This document shows positions 39,903-46,727 of a stretch of 64,000 bases of DNA, piece after piece. This DNA is from Deltaproteobacteria bacterium (GTDB lineage Bacteria; Desulfobacterota; GWC2-55-46). The stretch is taken from the NCBI GenBank assembly GCA_016177845.1, contig JACOUO010000007.1, forward strand, positions 62,001 to 126,000. The letters are read 5' to 3'. The position numbers and the translations under genes are program-made. The notes beneath the pieces were generated by a model that was not told the origin of the DNA, did not search any database, and saw only the letters and a list, made by a program, of their open reading frames with translations. The first letter of the stretch is position 1; every line of letters starts with the position of its first letter.

Positions 39903-40811
39903 ATGGACATCTGGGGCGAGACTAAAATAGATTTCCTGGGCAAACGATATATAATGTTTGCCATATCAGGGATCCTCGCGATAATAGGCCTTATTGCCAT
40001 GATATCAATCCCAATGGGCAAGGCAAATCTTGGGACTGACTTTGCAGGCGGTATCGCAATTCAGTTCAGGTTTGAAAAGCCTGTGGAGATAGACAAGGTC
40101 AGGTCAATCCTTGAGCAGAACGGCTTTAAGGACGCCAACCTCCAGCAGTTTGCCGAACCGAATAAGCTCCTTGTAAAGCTTAAAAGGACGGAGGGGAACT
40201 TAAGCGAGTTGTCAAAAAGGCTCGGCGATGTGTTTGTGGCAGGGCTGGCGGATAACCCCTATCATGTTGATTCGACAACAGAAGTAGGCCCCACAGTCGG
40301 CAAAAAACTTCAGAGCGACGCGCTCTGGGCAATCGGTATTTCGCTTCTGGGTATCCTGATATATGTAGCCTGGAGATTCGAGTTCAGGTTCGGAGTGGCA
40401 GCTGTTATTGCCACATTCCACGATGTGCTTGCGGTAATGGGGCTGCTCTTTGTGCTCGATAAGGAGATAACACTCCTTATCGTAACCGCCCTTCTGACAT
40501 TGGCAGGCTATTCGCTTACCGATACCGTCGTTGTATTTGACAGGATAAGGGAGAACTTAAGGAGAAGGACAAAAGAGGAGTTTATCCCCCTTATCAACAG
40601 GTCGGTTAATGAGGTCTTAAGAAGGACGATAGTTACATCCCTTACCACACTGCTTGCCACCCTTGCGCTTCTTTTGTTCGGGGGCGAGGTCATACATGAC
40701 TTCTCGCTTGCGCTCTTTGCCGGCATACTCGTAGGCACATATTCTTCGATATTCATAGCAAGCCCGATCCTTCTTTTCTGGAAGAAGAAGCCGGCCCTTG
40801 CAAAAAGCTGA
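39903..40811 (+). CDS. secF: Protein-export membrane protein SecF
   Basis: This 302-residue partner of SecD has six membrane helices. Motifs: KANLGTDFAGGIAIQF in the first periplasmic loop, YVAWRFEFRFGVAAVIATFHD, TLAGYSLTDTVVVFDRIREN and GTYSSIFIASPILL. The 66-base gap after secD has GGAGG before the ATG. A strong terminator follows, ending the queA-to-secF transcript. Confidence 0.95.
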   Translation: MDIWGETKIDFLGKRYIMFAISGILAIIGLIAMISIPMGKANLGTDFAGGIAIQFRFEKPVEIDKVRSILEQNGFKDANLQQFAEPNKLLVKLKRTEGNLSELSKRLGDVFVAGLADNPYHVDSTTEVGPTVGKKLQSDALWAIGISLLGILIYVAWRFEFRFGVAAVIATFHDVLAVMGLLFVLDKEITLLIVTALLTLAGYSLTDTVVVFDRIRENLRRRTKEEFIPLINRSVNEVLRRTIVTSLTTLLATLALLLFGGEVIHDFSLALFAGILVGTYSSIFIASPILLFWKKKPALAKS

Positions 40812-40827
40812 TTATAAAAAACACAAG

Positions 40828-40855
40828 GCCCGCGGGAGATTCCCGCGGGCTTTTT
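40828..40855 (+). terminator. Rho-independent terminator after secF
   Basis: A perfect 10-bp stem, GCCCGCGGGA (40828-40837) with TCCCGCGGGC (40841-40850) around a 3-base loop, is followed by five Ts. Confidence 0.92.
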
Positions 40856-41111: not shown

Positions 41112-42689
41112 ATGATGATGGAGAAAAAAATTATACCCGGTTCTGATATATCCAAGCCTTTGGACTTCTCTCTATGGCGTGAATTTCAGGAAGGCCTTTC
41201 AAAGCTTCTTGATATTCCCATTTCGCTCTATGACGGAAACGGCGTTCTTGTAATGCCTTCAGACAGGGAGACCTGCCTGTGCCAGGCTGTTAAGCTAAAT
41301 GAGAGCGGAAATGAGCGCTGCACGGATATGTGCGCGAAGGCAGCCCGCCAGGTTGCAGAGAACGGCAATATCTACACATTCAAATGCCATACTAACCAGT
41401 ATCTTTTCGCGATACCGGTATTTCTTGATGAGAATAATAAGTATGTGATCATAGGCGGACAGGCCTACCTCGCGGGAAGCGAACTCAAGGATTTCTATGA
41501 AGGGGCGGCTTCCGTCGGTTTTGACAGCGCTACCCTTGCCATCCTTAAGAATGGGCTTAAGACTATACCCCCGAAGTCGATTTTCACTATTCCGGGGATA
41601 ATACAGAACCTTGCCGTGCCGTTCCTCAAATGCCTGAATACGGGTGAAGCGAACGCAACGGTCAGGCGCAGGGACAAGGCAAATCTTAAAAGTTTTTACG
41701 CACTTGAGCAGGTCTATCGCTCGATAGCCCCTGTGTTGGACAGGGAAGAGCTCTATGAGACCATTCTCGCTAAGTCCTCTGAACTTGTGGAGGCTGAGAG
41801 GGGCTCATTGATGATACTCGATAATAAAAACAATTTTCTCTCGGTTAAAGCCGCAAAGGGGATTGATAAATCTATCGTGGATAGCCTTAGAGTAAGGGTA
41901 GGCGAGGGAATTTCAGGCTCTATAGCCGCAAAGGGCCTGCCAGTAATAGTTAAAAACATAGAAGATGAGGTGCCGTCCCGCAGGAGCAACCCAAGGTACA
42001 GGACAAAATCATTTATATCCATACCGCTTAAGATAGACACCCGTGTCATCGGTGTCATTAATGTATCTGACAAGTTAACCGGGGAGGTCTTCTCAGAAGA
42101 GGATCTGCATCTGCTTCTTTCTTTTGCCAATTACGCCTCAATAGCTCTTGAGAGGGGCGCTTACTACAGCATGAGCGAAGAGCTTAAGATGCTATCCATG
42201 ACAGACCCTCTGACAGGGCTTTTCAACAGGCGTTATTTCAGGGAAAGGCTTTTTGAGGAAGTCGAGCGCGTAAAGAGGCATAACGAGTGCTTCTCGACCT
42301 TTATGATAGATATCGATAACTTCAAGGGTTTCAATGACAGGTACGGCCATATCGGAGGGGACGAGATACTTAAGGGTGTCGCCCGCGCGATAAGGGATGC
42401 CGTAAGGTCGATGGATGTGGTTGCAAGATACGGCGGCGAGGAGTTTGCCGTGATACTGCCGCATACAGGCAAGACCGATGCCTATATAATCGCCGAGAGG
42501 ATAAGAAGAGGTGTAGAGGAGTACAGGCCGAAATCATCCGTATTTACTGAATGGCCTACCATCAGTCTCGGAGTTGCCGAGTTCCCGCACGACGCTAATA
42601 ATATAGACGACCTTATAAATAAGGCTGACAAGGCGATGTATCTCGCCAAGAGAAGGGGTAAGAACAGGGTTGTTGTATATGAGGGATAA
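41112..42689 (+). CDS. Diguanylate cyclase with PocR and GAF sensor domains
   Basis: The protein is about 525 residues; the first of three tandem ATGs (41112) was chosen, though none has a clear ribosome site. Domain order: a PocR sensory domain (LWREFQEGLSKLLDIPISLY through FKCHTNQYLFAIPVF and IGGQAY, with several Cys, to about 175), a GAF domain (about 190-360, GEGISGSIAAKGLP) and a GGDEF domain (DPLTGLFNRRYF to the end). The active site is GGEEF, and RSMD five residues before it is an intact inhibitory site. It should make c-di-GMP and be inhibited by it. It overlaps the next gene by 11 bases, so it is tied to the ATPase, STAS and HD-GYP genes that follow. The ligand is unknown; PocR domains often bind small hydrocarbons or diols. 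Confidence 0.88.
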   Translation: MMMEKKIIPGSDISKPLDFSLWREFQEGLSKLLDIPISLYDGNGVLVMPSDRETCLCQAVKLNESGNERCTDMCAKAARQVAENGNIYTFKCHTNQYLFAIPVFLDENNKYVIIGGQAYLAGSELKDFYEGAASVGFDSATLAILKNGLKTIPPKSIFTIPGIIQNLAVPFLKCLNTGEANATVRRRDKANLKSFYALEQVYRSIAPVLDREELYETILAKSSELVEAERGSLMILDNKNNFLSVKAAKGIDKSIVDSLRVRVGEGISGSIAAKGLPVIVKNIEDEVPSRRSNPRYRTKSFISIPLKIDTRVIGVINVSDKLTGEVFSEEDLHLLLSFANYASIALERGAYYSMSEELKMLSMTDPLTGLFNRRYFRERLFEEVERVKRHNECFSTFMIDIDNFKGFNDRYGHIGGDEILKGVARAIRDAVRSMDVVARYGGEEFAVILPHTGKTDAYIIAERIRRGVEEYRPKSSVFTEWPTISLGVAEFPHDANNIDDLINKADKAMYLAKRRGKNRVVVYEG

Positions 42690-44901
42690 GCTGTTATTCA
42701 ATATCTGCCCTGAAGGGGAGTTTTTCGGCAGGAACAGGGAGATAGACTATATATTTCGCAGGGCGACAGAAAGCCATAAATCACCCAACATCTTCCTTAC
42801 GGGAAGAAAGTGGATGGGCAAGACTGAGGTCCTGCGCAGAGTCCACCGCAAGCTCTTCTGGGACCAGGCCCATGTAGTGCCTGTCTATTACCAGTTCAGG
42901 AGATACGGCAGCGTTGAGAGCTTCTCTGAAGATTATCTTAAAGAGGTATTGAAGCAATACTTTGCCTATAAAAAAAGAGAGCCCAGAATACTTAAGTCTG
43001 AGGTCTCAATCGATAAGCTGGAAAGATTGCTTATAGACAGCGATTCATTTGAGCTTGCGGAGTTTATCTCAAGGCACAGGGAAGCGAAAAAAAGCGGAGA
43101 TAAGACCGCTGTCTTAAGGAATGCCATAAGCGCCCCTGACCTTATTACGCTCCGTTCCGGCATCCCTATATATTTGATACTCGATGACCTTGACCTTGCC
43201 CCGTACATAAACTTATTCAATGAAGGGCCGGGCATCATGAAGGAATTCATGGAGGCCCTGAATTCAGGCTCATTCTCATTTCTGGCCGCAAGCTCCACAA
43301 AAAAGGTGCTTGAGGGAGGCGTGTCAAACGGCTCCATAGAGGCTATTACCCTTGAAGGGCTTGATGAGGAACTTGCTGTTTCCATGATGATGGAGCTTTG
43401 CAGGCAGTATAATATCGAGTTTGACTCAGAGATACTTACCCTCGCGGCCTTTAAGCTCGAAGGCAATCCCAACTATATCAAGAACCTCATCTGGGCAGCC
43501 CACAGGGCTGACAAAGAGCTTGTAATACTTAAGGATTTTGTCGATCTCTATGCCAATGAGCTTGTGGACGGCAATATTGGTTTTGCTTTTAGGTCTTCAA
43601 TCCATCTTAAGGGCTTAAGCGACCTCAGGCTTTTGAGCGCGTGCGCCAATGCGGGAAAAGCCGTCTCTGAAGAGGATTTGGCTGAAAAGTTCAGGATAAG
43701 CCCTGAAGAGTTCAGAAAGACCATAGACGAGCTTGGAACCGCGGGACTTCTTGAGGCAAGCCTCGGCTCGATAAAATGGGTCGGCGATAATGTAGTAAAG
43801 GATTACATCTTCTATATATATGAGACAAGGGTCAAAGGCAGGAGCGCCGAAGAGGTGAAGACCTGTTTCATAAGGGACGGCCTGAAGGAAGGGTTCAACT
43901 TCAAGGGAGCAAAGATAAGAGGGCGCTTCAAGGAAGAAGCGGCTGAGCTTGTAAAAAAATTCAATGGGCAGAGCATGCTTAAGGTGCTTTTCAGGAACCA
44001 GGCATTTTCAGCCCGCTTCAAGAACGGCCCTCCAAAATCAGTTGAGAAAAAAATTGACGAAGACCTGATACTTCCTCAGATAATAGGCTGTTTCGATACA
44101 TTGAGGTGGGAGGCGAATGAGACAGGCGCGCCGATACTGATAGCCCACGGTTTTCAGAACAGCAGGTATGATTCAGGCAACGAGGTTGTTTGGATAATCG
44201 GAGTAAAAGAGGCGACAGCGCCTTTTAATCTCGGTGATATCGAGAACTTTGTAAGGCGTTCGATAATACTGAAAGAAAACTTCAGGGCAACCCGAATAGT
44301 AAGGTGGGTCATCAGCAAGGAAGGCTTTACTGCCGAGGCGCAGAAGCGCGCCGAGGGAGAGGGTATCTTTTCCACTGATAATGTCCAGTTCCGAATCATA
44401 AGCGACAGTATAGATGATAAGGCAAAGTCTGAGAGGCTCAAGAGCGCTGATAAGATAGTGCCTGTGAAGGAATTCGAGGTAGTGCTGCCGTCCGCAACAA
44501 AGGCAGAGCTTGTGGGCGCAAGGGCAGTTGAAGAGATTGGCACTGAGATGGGGTTTGACGAAGACTCCATAGGACAGATAAAGGCGGCATTGGTAGAGGC
44601 CTGCATCAATGCCTTTGAGCACTCAAAGATGAAATCCACAAAGGTATTTCTAAGGTTTGTGGCATCAGGGGACAGGCTTACCATTCATGTGCAGAACGGC
44701 GGGGCTGATTTTGATAAATCGGCTCAGTCCGAAAGCATTGCCGAGACCACTTCGGGGCTGCCTCATAAGAGGGGCTGGGGCCTTGAGCTGATGAAGGGCC
44801 TTATGGATGAGGTCAGGTTCGAGAAGCTCAGGGGCGGCACAAAAATAGTAATGGTTAAATTTTTAATCAAAAAAGGAGAGGGAAGGGATGGGCAAGAATA
44901 G
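42679..44901 (+). CDS. P-loop ATPase fused to an RsbW-like serine kinase domain
   Basis: The protein is about 740 residues from ATG 42679 (TTG at 42670 is an alternative). The N-terminal ATPase has FFGRNREIDYIF and Walker A GRKWMGKT (42-49) and Walker B-like YLILDDLD. A winged-helix-like middle (SEEDLAEKFRISPEEF) leads into a region at about 470-585 with VVWIIGVKEA and RWVISKEGFTAEAQKRAE, which looks like a Mrr-type nuclease fold. The last 140 residues resemble anti-sigma factor kinases (HATPase_c_2): N-box EACINAFEH (Asn644) and GWGLELMKGLMDEV. The G1 box is degenerate (NGGAD instead of DxGxG). The STAS gene overlaps its end by 14 bases, so the C-terminal domain probably binds or phosphorylates that protein. 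I know of no characterised protein with this exact order. Confidence 0.72.
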   Translation: MRDKLLFNICPEGEFFGRNREIDYIFRRATESHKSPNIFLTGRKWMGKTEVLRRVHRKLFWDQAHVVPVYYQFRRYGSVESFSEDYLKEVLKQYFAYKKREPRILKSEVSIDKLERLLIDSDSFELAEFISRHREAKKSGDKTAVLRNAISAPDLITLRSGIPIYLILDDLDLAPYINLFNEGPGIMKEFMEALNSGSFSFLAASSTKKVLEGGVSNGSIEAITLEGLDEELAVSMMMELCRQYNIEFDSEILTLAAFKLEGNPNYIKNLIWAAHRADKELVILKDFVDLYANELVDGNIGFAFRSSIHLKGLSDLRLLSACANAGKAVSEEDLAEKFRISPEEFRKTIDELGTAGLLEASLGSIKWVGDNVVKDYIFYIYETRVKGRSAEEVKTCFIRDGLKEGFNFKGAKIRGRFKEEAAELVKKFNGQSMLKVLFRNQAFSARFKNGPPKSVEKKIDEDLILPQIIGCFDTLRWEANETGAPILIAHGFQNSRYDSGNEVVWIIGVKEATAPFNLGDIENFVRRSIILKENFRATRIVRWVISKEGFTAEAQKRAEGEGIFSTDNVQFRIISDSIDDKAKSERLKSADKIVPVKEFEVVLPSATKAELVGARAVEEIGTEMGFDEDSIGQIKAALVEACINAFEHSKMKSTKVFLRFVASGDRLTIHVQNGGADFDKSAQSESIAETTSGLPHKRGWGLELMKGLMDEVRFEKLRGGTKIVMVKFLIKKGEGRDGQE

Positions 44902-45250
44902 GAATTACAGGGAGGCTGGCGACAGCGTCATCCTATATCCCGAAAATTATATAAACGATATCGAAGGCGAAAAGCTTGAAGATATGTGCGATATATTCCT
45001 TGCCAGGGGTTTTAAGAAGATAATAATCGATTTCTCCGAGACAGACCTTATAAACTCCATAGGGGTCTCGATAATGATAGGCATAATTGAAAAGATCAAG
45101 GATAAAAAGGGGCTGATACTCTTCTCCGGCCTTAAGAAGGTGAACCACGATATCTTCAGCATTGTAGGGCTTACAAAGCATATACCCGTTTTCAGCACTG
45201 AAAAAGAGGCACTGGATGTGGTCTCATGCGAAGACCGCCTACCCATGTAA
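44888..45250 (+). CDS. STAS-domain anti-sigma factor antagonist
   Basis: The product is 120 residues, a lone STAS domain. The conserved phosphorylation region is DLINSIGVS, with Ser57 the likely target; IIIDFSE precedes it as usual. The N-terminal strand and final helix are complete. A strong GGAGAGGG ribosome site lies within the preceding gene. In partner-switch systems such a protein is phosphorylated by an RsbW-like kinase and binds it when dephosphorylated. The kinase-like domain encoded just upstream is the natural partner. No sigma factor lies in this operon, so the output is more likely c-di-GMP or the fused ATPase. Confidence 0.85.
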   Translation: MGKNRNYREAGDSVILYPENYINDIEGEKLEDMCDIFLARGFKKIIIDFSETDLINSIGVSIMIGIIEKIKDKKGLILFSGLKKVNHDIFSIVGLTKHIPVFSTEKEALDVVSCEDRLPM

Positions 45251-45284
45251 CTATTCTTTCTATTTCGCAGTATAGGAGGCTTTA

Positions 45285-46517
45285 ATGAATATGGACCTTA
45301 GCCTGGAGCGGCTGTTGTTCAATCTGAACACTCTGGCCGAACTTGGCGAGGAGATAACCTCTCCAAAGGACTTCAACAAGGTCGTAAAATCTTCCCTTTA
45401 CATGGTAATGGGGTCTTTTTCGGCTTCAAAAGGCCTTATCTTCCAGTTTGACCAGGATGGAAGGTGCTTCCACCCGATAGCCTCCAAGGGGCTTGGAGAC
45501 ATAAATGGTGTGGGTATAAAGATAAGCCCTGAAGCTGTCAAAGAGCTTATAAAAAACAATAAACCGATTGACCTTAAAAGCAACGAACATCCGGTCCCTC
45601 TTCTTGGGGCGGCAAGGGGCGAGTTTGAAAAGCTCGGCTCAAGGATAGTTGCCGGCCTCATCGTTAAAGATGAGCTTCTGGGGCTTATAGCCGTTGGCGA
45701 TAAGTTCACGGGAGAGGATTATTCGGTCTATGACCTTCAGCTTCTTTCGGTAATGGCGCAGCATATATCGTTCAGCCTGCACAGCCATTCGCTCCTTATG
45801 AAGCTGATGCATAAGTTTACGGAAAATAAAGGGCTTTATGATAACTTAAGGCGCATATACTACGATACTATTCACGCCTTTGCCGCGGCAATTGACGCAA
45901 AGGACGCATACACAAGGGGCCACTCTCACAGGGTCTCTGCCTACAGCGCGGTACTGGCAAGGGAGATGGGCTGGGACAAGGACGCGATGGAGGGCATAAG
46001 GATAGCAGGCCTCCTCCATGATATCGGTAAGATTGCGGTAGATAAGACTATTATAAACAAGGCAAGCCCGCTTACGACAATGGAATGCAGGGAATTGAAT
46101 TCCCATCCGGTAGTCGGCTATGAGATTCTTTCAAAGATAAAGTTCCCGTGGAAGGGGATACCGATGATGACTCGCAACCACCATGAGAAGGTTGACGGCA
46201 GCGGGTACCCTGACAGGCTCAAAAGGCAGGAGATTCCCATGGGCGCAAGGATAATGGCGCTTACCGATGCCTTTGACGCCATGACAACGGACAGGCCTTA
46301 CAGGCCAAGGCTTTCGTTCAGGGAAGCCATAGGAGAGATTAAAGATAACTTCGGCAAGCAGTTTGACCCGGAAGCTGTCGGCCCGTTTATAAATGTCATC
46401 CGCAAGGAAGTGCTTGGAGAGGTTGATAGTCCTACAATCGTGCCGCTTCTTCAGGAACAGCTTGACTCTATTACCATTCACAGGATGCTTGACGGATTCC
46501 CCGAAGCAATAATATAA
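45285..46517 (+). CDS. GAF and HD-GYP protein, probable c-di-GMP phosphodiesterase
   Basis: The protein is 410 residues: a GAF-like sensor region (about 10-170, with GLIAVGDKFTGEDYSVYDLQ) and a C-terminal HD-GYP domain (about 200-380). The metal site shows HSHR, LLHDIGK (His245, Asp246), SHPVVG, NHHEKVDGSGYP (GYP at 307-309) and LTDAFDAMTTDRPYR. All catalytic residues seem present, so it should cleave c-di-GMP. A good AGGAGG site lies before the ATG. It closes an operon that starts with a diguanylate cyclase, so the cassette carries both synthesis and breakdown. Confidence 0.88.
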   Translation: MNMDLSLERLLFNLNTLAELGEEITSPKDFNKVVKSSLYMVMGSFSASKGLIFQFDQDGRCFHPIASKGLGDINGVGIKISPEAVKELIKNNKPIDLKSNEHPVPLLGAARGEFEKLGSRIVAGLIVKDELLGLIAVGDKFTGEDYSVYDLQLLSVMAQHISFSLHSHSLLMKLMHKFTENKGLYDNLRRIYYDTIHAFAAAIDAKDAYTRGHSHRVSAYSAVLAREMGWDKDAMEGIRIAGLLHDIGKIAVDKTIINKASPLTTMECRELNSHPVVGYEILSKIKFPWKGIPMMTRNHHEKVDGSGYPDRLKRQEIPMGARIMALTDAFDAMTTDRPYRPRLSFREAIGEIKDNFGKQFDPEAVGPFINVIRKEVLGEVDSPTIVPLLQEQLDSITIHRMLDGFPEAII

Positions 46518-46540
46518 AACTATTAAGAAATACCTAATAA

Positions 46541-46571
46541 AAACCCCTCAGCAGAAGCTGAGGGGTTTTTT
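46541..46571 (+). terminator. Rho-independent terminator after the HD-GYP gene
   Basis: AAACCCCTCAGC (46541-46552) pairs perfectly over 12 bp with GCTGAGGGGTTT around an AGAA loop, followed by a run of Ts. Confidence 0.93.
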
Positions 46572-46649: not shown

Positions 46650-46681
46650 GATTGCTTATCGCTTCGCTCCTACGCAATGAC
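46650..46681 (-). repeat. Dispersed repeat, variant of type B
   Basis: AGATTGCTTATCGCTTCGC followed by TCCTACGCAATGAC reads, on the minus strand, as a GTCATTGCG element ending in AGCAATCT. It shares its ends but not its centre with the type B copies at 6479 and 46734. Confidence 0.6.
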
Positions 46682-46690
46682 AATATTTTT

Positions 46691-46727
46691 CCCTCTCCCC
46701 TTGTGGGAGAGGGTAGGGGTGAGGGGG
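46691..46727. repeat. Short intergenic repeat with CCCTCTCCCC / GGGAGAGGG arms
   Basis: CCCTCTCCC and GGGAGAGGG flank a short centre, then TAGGGGTGAGGGGG follows. A related form is hinted at by CTTCTCCCAGAAGGAGAG near 6520. Such elements are common between genes in many bacteria. Confidence 0.55.

Follow-up and report, generated by a model that had tools for sequence, protein, structure and literature searches.

A conserved four-gene operon in which a putative partner switch may control c-di-GMP turnover through a GAF domain of an HD-GYP protein

We analyzed a 64,000-nucleotide stretch of a Deltaproteobacteria bacterium genome (the window), in which four genes lie on the plus strand between positions 41112 and 46517. 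Gene 1 (41112..42689), identified from its open reading frame and Pfam matches, encodes a PocR-GAF-GGDEF diguanylate cyclase of 524-525 amino acids. Gene 2 (42679..44901) encodes a 740-residue protein composed of a STAND/Orc1-Cdc6-like ATPase, a winged helix, a PD-(D/E)XK-like domain and an RsbW-like GHKL domain, gene 3 (44888..45250) encodes a single-domain STAS protein, and gene 4 (45285..46517) encodes a 410-residue protein in which a GAF domain, here called GAF-A, precedes an HD-GYP phosphodiesterase domain. Genes 1 and 2 overlap by 11 nt, genes 2 and 3 by 14 nt, and the gap between genes 3 and 4 is 34 nt. A terminator-like hairpin of 14 pairs lies at the end of the operon (46539..46570, plus strand). 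The description given in the initial annotation, of overlapping or closely spaced genes ended by a terminator, was thus accurate, and Pfam profiles bore out its domain calls for all four genes. A second terminator-like hairpin (40825..40853, plus strand; 13 pairs, 9 of them G-C) is found 3' of secF and sets the operon apart from secDF. No RNA element reached the Rfam gathering scores between positions 40700 and 47100, and promoter-like sites occurred at the frequency found in shuffled sequences (9 observed, 9.0 in shuffles), so that no promoter is claimed. Downstream of the operon, positions 46650-46713 contain a palindromic CCCTCTCCCC..GGGAGAGGG element and a GATTGC..GCAATGACA element, which look repeat-like, yet are present in single copy within the window.

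The two outermost genes are predicted to encode active enzymes of c-di-GMP metabolism. Gene 1 matched the GGDEF (3.1e-49) and PocR (8.2e-17) families and was also assigned a GAF domain; its inhibitory RxxD site (RSMD) and GGEEF active-site motif (42405..42446, plus strand) are kept in 32/32 aligned cyclases. Gene 4 gave a strong match to HD_5 (3.8e-39) and a weak one to GAF, and its catalytic motifs HDIGK and HHEKVDGSGYP (46017..46211, plus strand) recur in its orthologs as HDIGK and HHExxDGxGYP. By these motifs the proteins qualify as a GG(D/E)EF cyclase and an HD-GYP phosphodiesterase, and the residues that the initial annotation had listed as evidence of activity and of inhibition are intact both here and in orthologs. 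In families f10-f12, the cyclase is approximately 150-200 residues longer (L054, L056, L057, L058, L067), with an extra weak GAF domain in L054, indicating that the input region is variable while the GAF-GGDEF part is kept.

The N-terminal P-loop ATPase domain of gene 2 (42718..43578, plus strand) contains the P-loop GRKWMGKT (42802-42825) and an acidic pair, DD, at residues 169-170. Its matches to ATPase_2 (1.9e-7) and AAA_16 (6.7e-5) were both under the Pfam cut-off; the GKT and DD residues are invariant in the ortholog alignment. In a structure model of the whole protein (mean pLDDT 81, pTM 0.57), an Orc1/Cdc6- and CED-4-like ATPase (2qen, TMt 0.64; CED-4, TMt 0.53) is followed by a winged-helix-like segment, a middle domain and an RsbW fold. 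With a P-loop, an acidic pair and a winged helix after the NTPase, the protein has the features of the STAND or archaeal ATPase_2 proteins. The middle domain (43831..44466, plus strand; pLDDT 82 when modeled alone), which links the STAND-like ATPase to the RsbW domain, resembles PD-(D/E)XK nucleases such as MspJI, EndoMS and AspBHI. Its catalytic residues are apparently absent; since the best fold match was weak (E 1e-3) and the orthologs share no (D/E)xK motif, a catalytic nuclease role is unsupported.

The RsbW-like GHKL domain (44467..44868, plus strand) matched HATPase_c_2 at 1.7e-17 and an RsbW model at 1.3e-15, under the full-length cut-off of the latter, and its modeled fold is of the RsbW/SpoIIAB type (6m36, 1th8). 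The N-box residues E640 and N644 are kept in the window and invariant in the alignment. The G2 box is also kept, but DxGxG lacks its last Gly. The G1-box Asp, which contacts adenine in GHKL ATPases, is Asn673 (44695-44697) in every ortholog of the window's clade and Asp in family f39 and in stand-alone relatives. This substitution could mean that ATP binding has been lost or that nucleotide choice has been altered, and we therefore treat the domain as a putative kinase whose ATP binding is uncertain. The adjacent gene 3 matched STAS at 1.3e-10. Its candidate phospho-acceptor, Ser57 (45056-45058, plus strand) in an NSIG motif, aligns with the phosphorylated Ser of SpoIIAA (DSSG), and the position is Ser throughout the orthologs except for a single Thr. 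An RsbW-type GHKL domain and a single-domain STAS protein are encoded by adjacent genes in nearly all loci. Thus, of the RsbW-like C-terminus and STAS target Ser initially proposed, the N-box, the HATPase_c_2 match and Ser57 stand, and with the G1-box Asp replaced the domain is a putative rather than a proven kinase.

A search of 97 relatives for gene 2 gave strong matches, most of them over the full length, in 33 genomes, all of the window's class and the window's own among them. All four genes occur in the same order and on the same strand of one contig at 23 further loci in the class, a count that includes three loci with gene 4 cut by a contig end and one, L055, with gene 2 split across two reading frames; nearly all of the remaining gene 2 loci are broken by contig ends. 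In the wider phylum, gene 2 was found in 25/395 genomes, the majority of which belong to the class or to family f39. Neighbor statistics were drawn from the fetched loci. The operon adjoins secF and/or recJ in families f1, f5 and f7, and these neighbors were not found beside it in the fetched loci of f4, f10, f11 and f12, indicating that the gene set was not merely inherited with its surroundings. The gene order is conserved far beyond chance, and the survey of genomes suggested at the outset therefore shows that the four genes are one real, well-conserved unit present in several different surroundings.

We then considered what else the genome offers to such a pair. In the window's genome, estimated to be 100% complete, SpoIIE (PF07228) and PP2C_2 (PF13672) had no match, and no SigB/F/G-type sigma factor exceeded the family cut-off (best score 139.7 bits vs 234). 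The initial annotation, which noted that no sigma factor or PP2C enzyme is encoded here, addressed neither this genome-wide lack of SpoIIE/PP2C_2 nor the altered adenine site. SpoIIE was matched in 8/61 relatives. Among 31 genomes reached through other loci, it was present in 17/17 of those with stand-alone kinases and matched weakly in 2/14 of those reached through L088 and L104-L116, so that the ATPase fusion goes with phosphatase absence. Without a PP2C, a phosphorylated STAS protein would need another way back. The genome has just one further STAS gene; it belongs to a chemotaxis operon, with CheA, a CheY-like receiver and a chemoreceptor as neighbors, and forms no part of the four-gene system.

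The domain that appears to receive the STAS protein is GAF-A of gene 4 (45285..45794, plus strand), a proposal that draws on co-occurrence and divergence comparisons. In a profile search of 61 relatives, GAF-A scores above 120 bits were confined to genomes that carry gene 2 and were reached in 32/33 of them; in the sole exception, G042, the contig stops before gene 4. In the window's genome GAF-A scored 213.6 bits vs 45.8 for the next GAF domain. The next scores after the strong GAF-A group were 112 bits, in G008 and G016, both of which lack the kinase/STAS pair (the switch), and GAF-A of G031, also switch-less, scored 57 bits, inside the range of other GAF domains (up to approximately 70 bits). 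In a GAF tree, gene 4 GAF-A clustered with the first GAFs of cyclases from Sericytochromatia and of a Marinimicrobia cyclase (L139); second GAFs and the gene 1 GAF fell outside this cluster with 98/96 support, some branches being long. Gene order and GAF-A co-occurrence link the STAS protein to a c-di-GMP enzyme, as in partner switches of the SiaABCD or HsbRAD type.

At the secF-recJ site, kinase and STAS genes were lost twice independently, leaving the diguanylate cyclase and HD-GYP genes adjacent (L237/L238, L239). The switch-less genomes G008 and G016 belong to one genus and G031 to another family; the locus lies beside recJ in these genomes, and in G031 also beside secF. HMM scores alone were set aside for judging GAF-A divergence, since switch-bearing sequences had served to train the models, and we relied instead on pairwise identity at matched HD-GYP divergence. 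Relative to switch-bearing orthologs, mean identity of the HD-GYP domain was 73% (G008/G016) and 66% (G031), and that of GAF-A was 37% and 32%. Intact pairs at equal HD-GYP identity had GAF-A identities of 46.7-59.9% and 39.5-56.1%, respectively, and the switch-less values fell below every one of them. GAF-A also diverges in f39, in which the switch is kept (L106, ratio 0.39), so that the comparison is valid only at matched divergence. GAF-A diverged without the kinase/STAS pair while the HD-GYP domain was kept, and the domain thus appears to be constrained by the switch; most simply, the switch keeps GAF-A from drifting, and this constraint was lifted in two independent losses. More generally, genes have been shed stepwise at the secF-recJ site (L237, L238, L239, L240, L241, L245), either kinase and STAS together or all but the cyclase.

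Outside the class, the loci that we examined are the best-scoring of 231 relatives found with an alignment query, and the proportions given for them here and below are not an unbiased census. Family f39 has kept the ATPase-kinase and STAS genes, and approximately half of its loci also carry a GAF-HD-GYP gene; relatives in f22, f97 and Rokubacteria likewise pair the ATPase-kinase and STAS genes with an HD-GYP gene. No cyclase was found next to the pair in the fetched loci of f39, f22, f97 and Rokubacteria. At 12 loci of Sericytochromatia, a stand-alone kinase and an NSIG STAS protein adjoin a GAF-GAF-GGDEF protein, and an HD-GYP gene lies close downstream in 11/12, in some cases with a DNA ligase-like gene between. 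These kinase-STAS-[GAF-GAF-GGDEF]-HD-GYP clusters (L211-L219, L221, L125) mostly have a GGEEM or GGEEL motif in the GGDEF domains examined, and variants of the HDxGE/Q type occur in their HD-GYP protein. GAF-A thus accompanies the kinase/STAS pair on three outputs, namely HD-GYP (the window's class, f39, f22, f97 and Rokubacteria), GGDEF (Sericytochromatia) and a class III cyclase (Marinimicrobia L139).

On balance, we lean toward the interpretation that the operon is a partner-switching module for c-di-GMP control, in which the STAS protein acts on the HD-GYP protein through GAF-A. Gene 2 would be the sensor-switch: its STAND/Orc-like ATPase half would sense a cue and alter the state of the RsbW-like domain, which would hold the STAS protein and might phosphorylate it at Ser57. 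Free STAS protein would then dock on GAF-A of gene 4 and set the phosphodiesterase activity. Gene 1 would be an accessory cyclase with its own PocR and GAF sensors, probably not a direct STAS target, and its place in the operon would ensure that the enzyme of synthesis is produced along with that of switch-controlled breakdown. We infer the contact between STAS and GAF-A from the constraint on GAF-A; the sign of its effect (activation or inhibition), the cue, and the choice between phosphorylation and ATPase-gated binding only are likewise inferred. Against this interpretation, GAF-A could not be recognized in the cyclase that adjoins the kinase/STAS pair at the majority of Bacteroidota loci. 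The proposal that STAS/RsbW switching sets c-di-GMP turnover is retained for a conserved unit but refined, in that the evidence favors the HD-GYP protein over the cyclase.

Every STAS/c-di-GMP switch with experimental backing that we found has a diguanylate cyclase as its target (PMC5085249, PMC8457831). By analogy with HsbA-HsbD and SiaC-SiaD, the STAS protein might act on gene 1, with the HD-GYP protein a co-expressed counterweight only. The position of GAF-A on the cyclase itself in Sericytochromatia fits this idea. However, in f39, f22, f97 and Rokubacteria the ATPase-kinase/STAS pair occurs with HD-GYP and no cyclase was found beside it, lone cyclases persist without the switch at the secF-recJ site (L240, L241, L245), and losing the switch did not relax the cyclase GAF, its GAF/GGDEF ratios (0.98 and 0.85) staying within the range of 0.80-1.01. 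We regard action on the cyclase as improbable, and the sequence comparisons point to GAF-A of the HD-GYP protein as the best-supported STAS target. RsbW and SpoIIAB are anti-sigma factors, so that the pair could instead control a sigma factor or another product encoded elsewhere, with the c-di-GMP enzymes merely co-transcribed; for Chlamydia, control of the main sigma factor by the Rsb network has been proposed (PMC4552016). A SigB/F/G target is unsupported in the window's genome, where none exceeded the cut-off. Moreover, the same neighborhood recurs over several families and surroundings, GAF-A co-occurs with the pair, and in other phyla the kinase/STAS family stands beside nucleotide enzymes; an unlinked target thus seems more improbable still.

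A further alternative is compatible with action through GAF-A and concerns only how the switch is thrown. The RsbW-like domain might be a pseudokinase that only sequesters the STAS protein, with the ATPase cycle replacing a kinase/phosphatase cycle. The absence of SpoIIE and PP2C_2 matches from the genome, the distribution of SpoIIE among relatives and the clade-wide Asn in the G1 box all suggest this. Against it, the STAS Ser is conserved and the N-box Glu and Asn are invariant, f39 also lacks a strong SpoIIE match yet keeps the canonical Asp, and the phosphatase search covered SpoIIE and PP2C_2 rather than PF00481 or other families. We consider a phosphorylation-independent switch possible but doubtful.

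The initial annotation gave sigma factors or PP2C enzymes as what known partner switches release, and expected a STAS/RsbW circuit setting c-di-GMP turnover to be new. Neither statement holds in general, as such control is known for cyclases and has been predicted in Campylobacterota. In P. aeruginosa, the STAS-type protein HsbA (Ser56) of the HptB-HsbR-HsbA-HsbD system binds the diguanylate cyclase HsbD (PMC5085249), and SiaC activates the diguanylate cyclase SiaD (PMC8457831). Partner-switch proteins also reach a diguanylate cyclase in the BgrSTUWV-BgrR system of Sinorhizobium meliloti, where BgrV controls BgrR (as cited in PMC8457831), and in the Moorella stressosome (as cited in PMC4976288). 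SiaABCD resembles the present locus in being an operon with a kinase and a STAS-like protein that controls c-di-GMP turnover through direct enzyme binding. However, SiaD is a cyclase, the phosphatase SiaA is present and SiaC is a DUF1987 protein with Thr68 as its site, whereas the window's operon has no PP2C, a kinase-like domain fused to an ATPase, a likely HD-GYP target and an added cyclase. The Hsb system likewise has a STAS-type protein that binds a c-di-GMP enzyme, but it targets HsbD and the anti-sigma factor FlgM, and HsbR is both kinase and phosphatase, under a phosphorelay. The Bgr and Moorella systems use other kinases and scaffolds, with no HD-GYP partner reported in the citing passages. 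The PP2C/stas_STYK/STAS/c-di-GMP pathways of Campylobacterota, predicted from genomes, also place a turnover enzyme under kinase/STAS control, but they include a PP2C, and the available part of the report mentions neither a GAF receiver nor an ATPase fusion (PMC9239204). RsbW/RsbV and SpoIIAB/SpoIIAA share the fold of the gene 2 C-terminal domain and the STAS family, but have a sigma-factor target and a stand-alone kinase that keeps the G1-box Asp.

A literature search that covered few subscription journals returned no report of a partner switch that acts on HD-GYP proteins, of one GAF receiver common to several outputs or of an RsbW domain fused to an ATPase. What appears to be new here is narrower than first proposed: GAF-A of an HD-GYP protein as the likely STAS target, an RsbW-like domain fused to a STAND/Orc-like ATPase without SpoIIE/PP2C_2, and a clade-wide Asn in the G1 box. 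Wherever we found a partner switch whose c-di-GMP target had been tested, it acts on synthesis. If true, phosphodiesterase control through a separable receiver would explain how one upstream pair can be rewired to different messengers. GAF-A is a short, defined domain for testing, and the absence of SpoIIE/PP2C_2 together with the altered nucleotide site makes partner switching without a phosphorylation cycle directly testable.

A broader version of this idea is that the kinase/STAS pair and a dedicated GAF receiver form a general plug for second-messenger enzymes (HD-GYP, GGDEF and class III cyclase), and that in the window's clade the fused STAND ATPase replaces the phosphatase, gating the switch without a STAS phosphorylation cycle. 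This combined proposal is speculative and, on present evidence, rather unlikely to hold in full. Among the Bacteroidota/Marinimicrobia-type loci, a stand-alone kinase and an NSIG STAS protein adjoin a class III cyclase in 27/33, and a SpoIIE gene lies within the fetched stretch in 30/33. It is possible that these clusters represent a partner switch directed at cAMP or cGMP. They are made up of SpoIIE, RsbW-like kinase, STAS and class III (adenylate/guanylate) cyclase (L117-L151; for example, L139:3449-6967 and L122:2619-11848).
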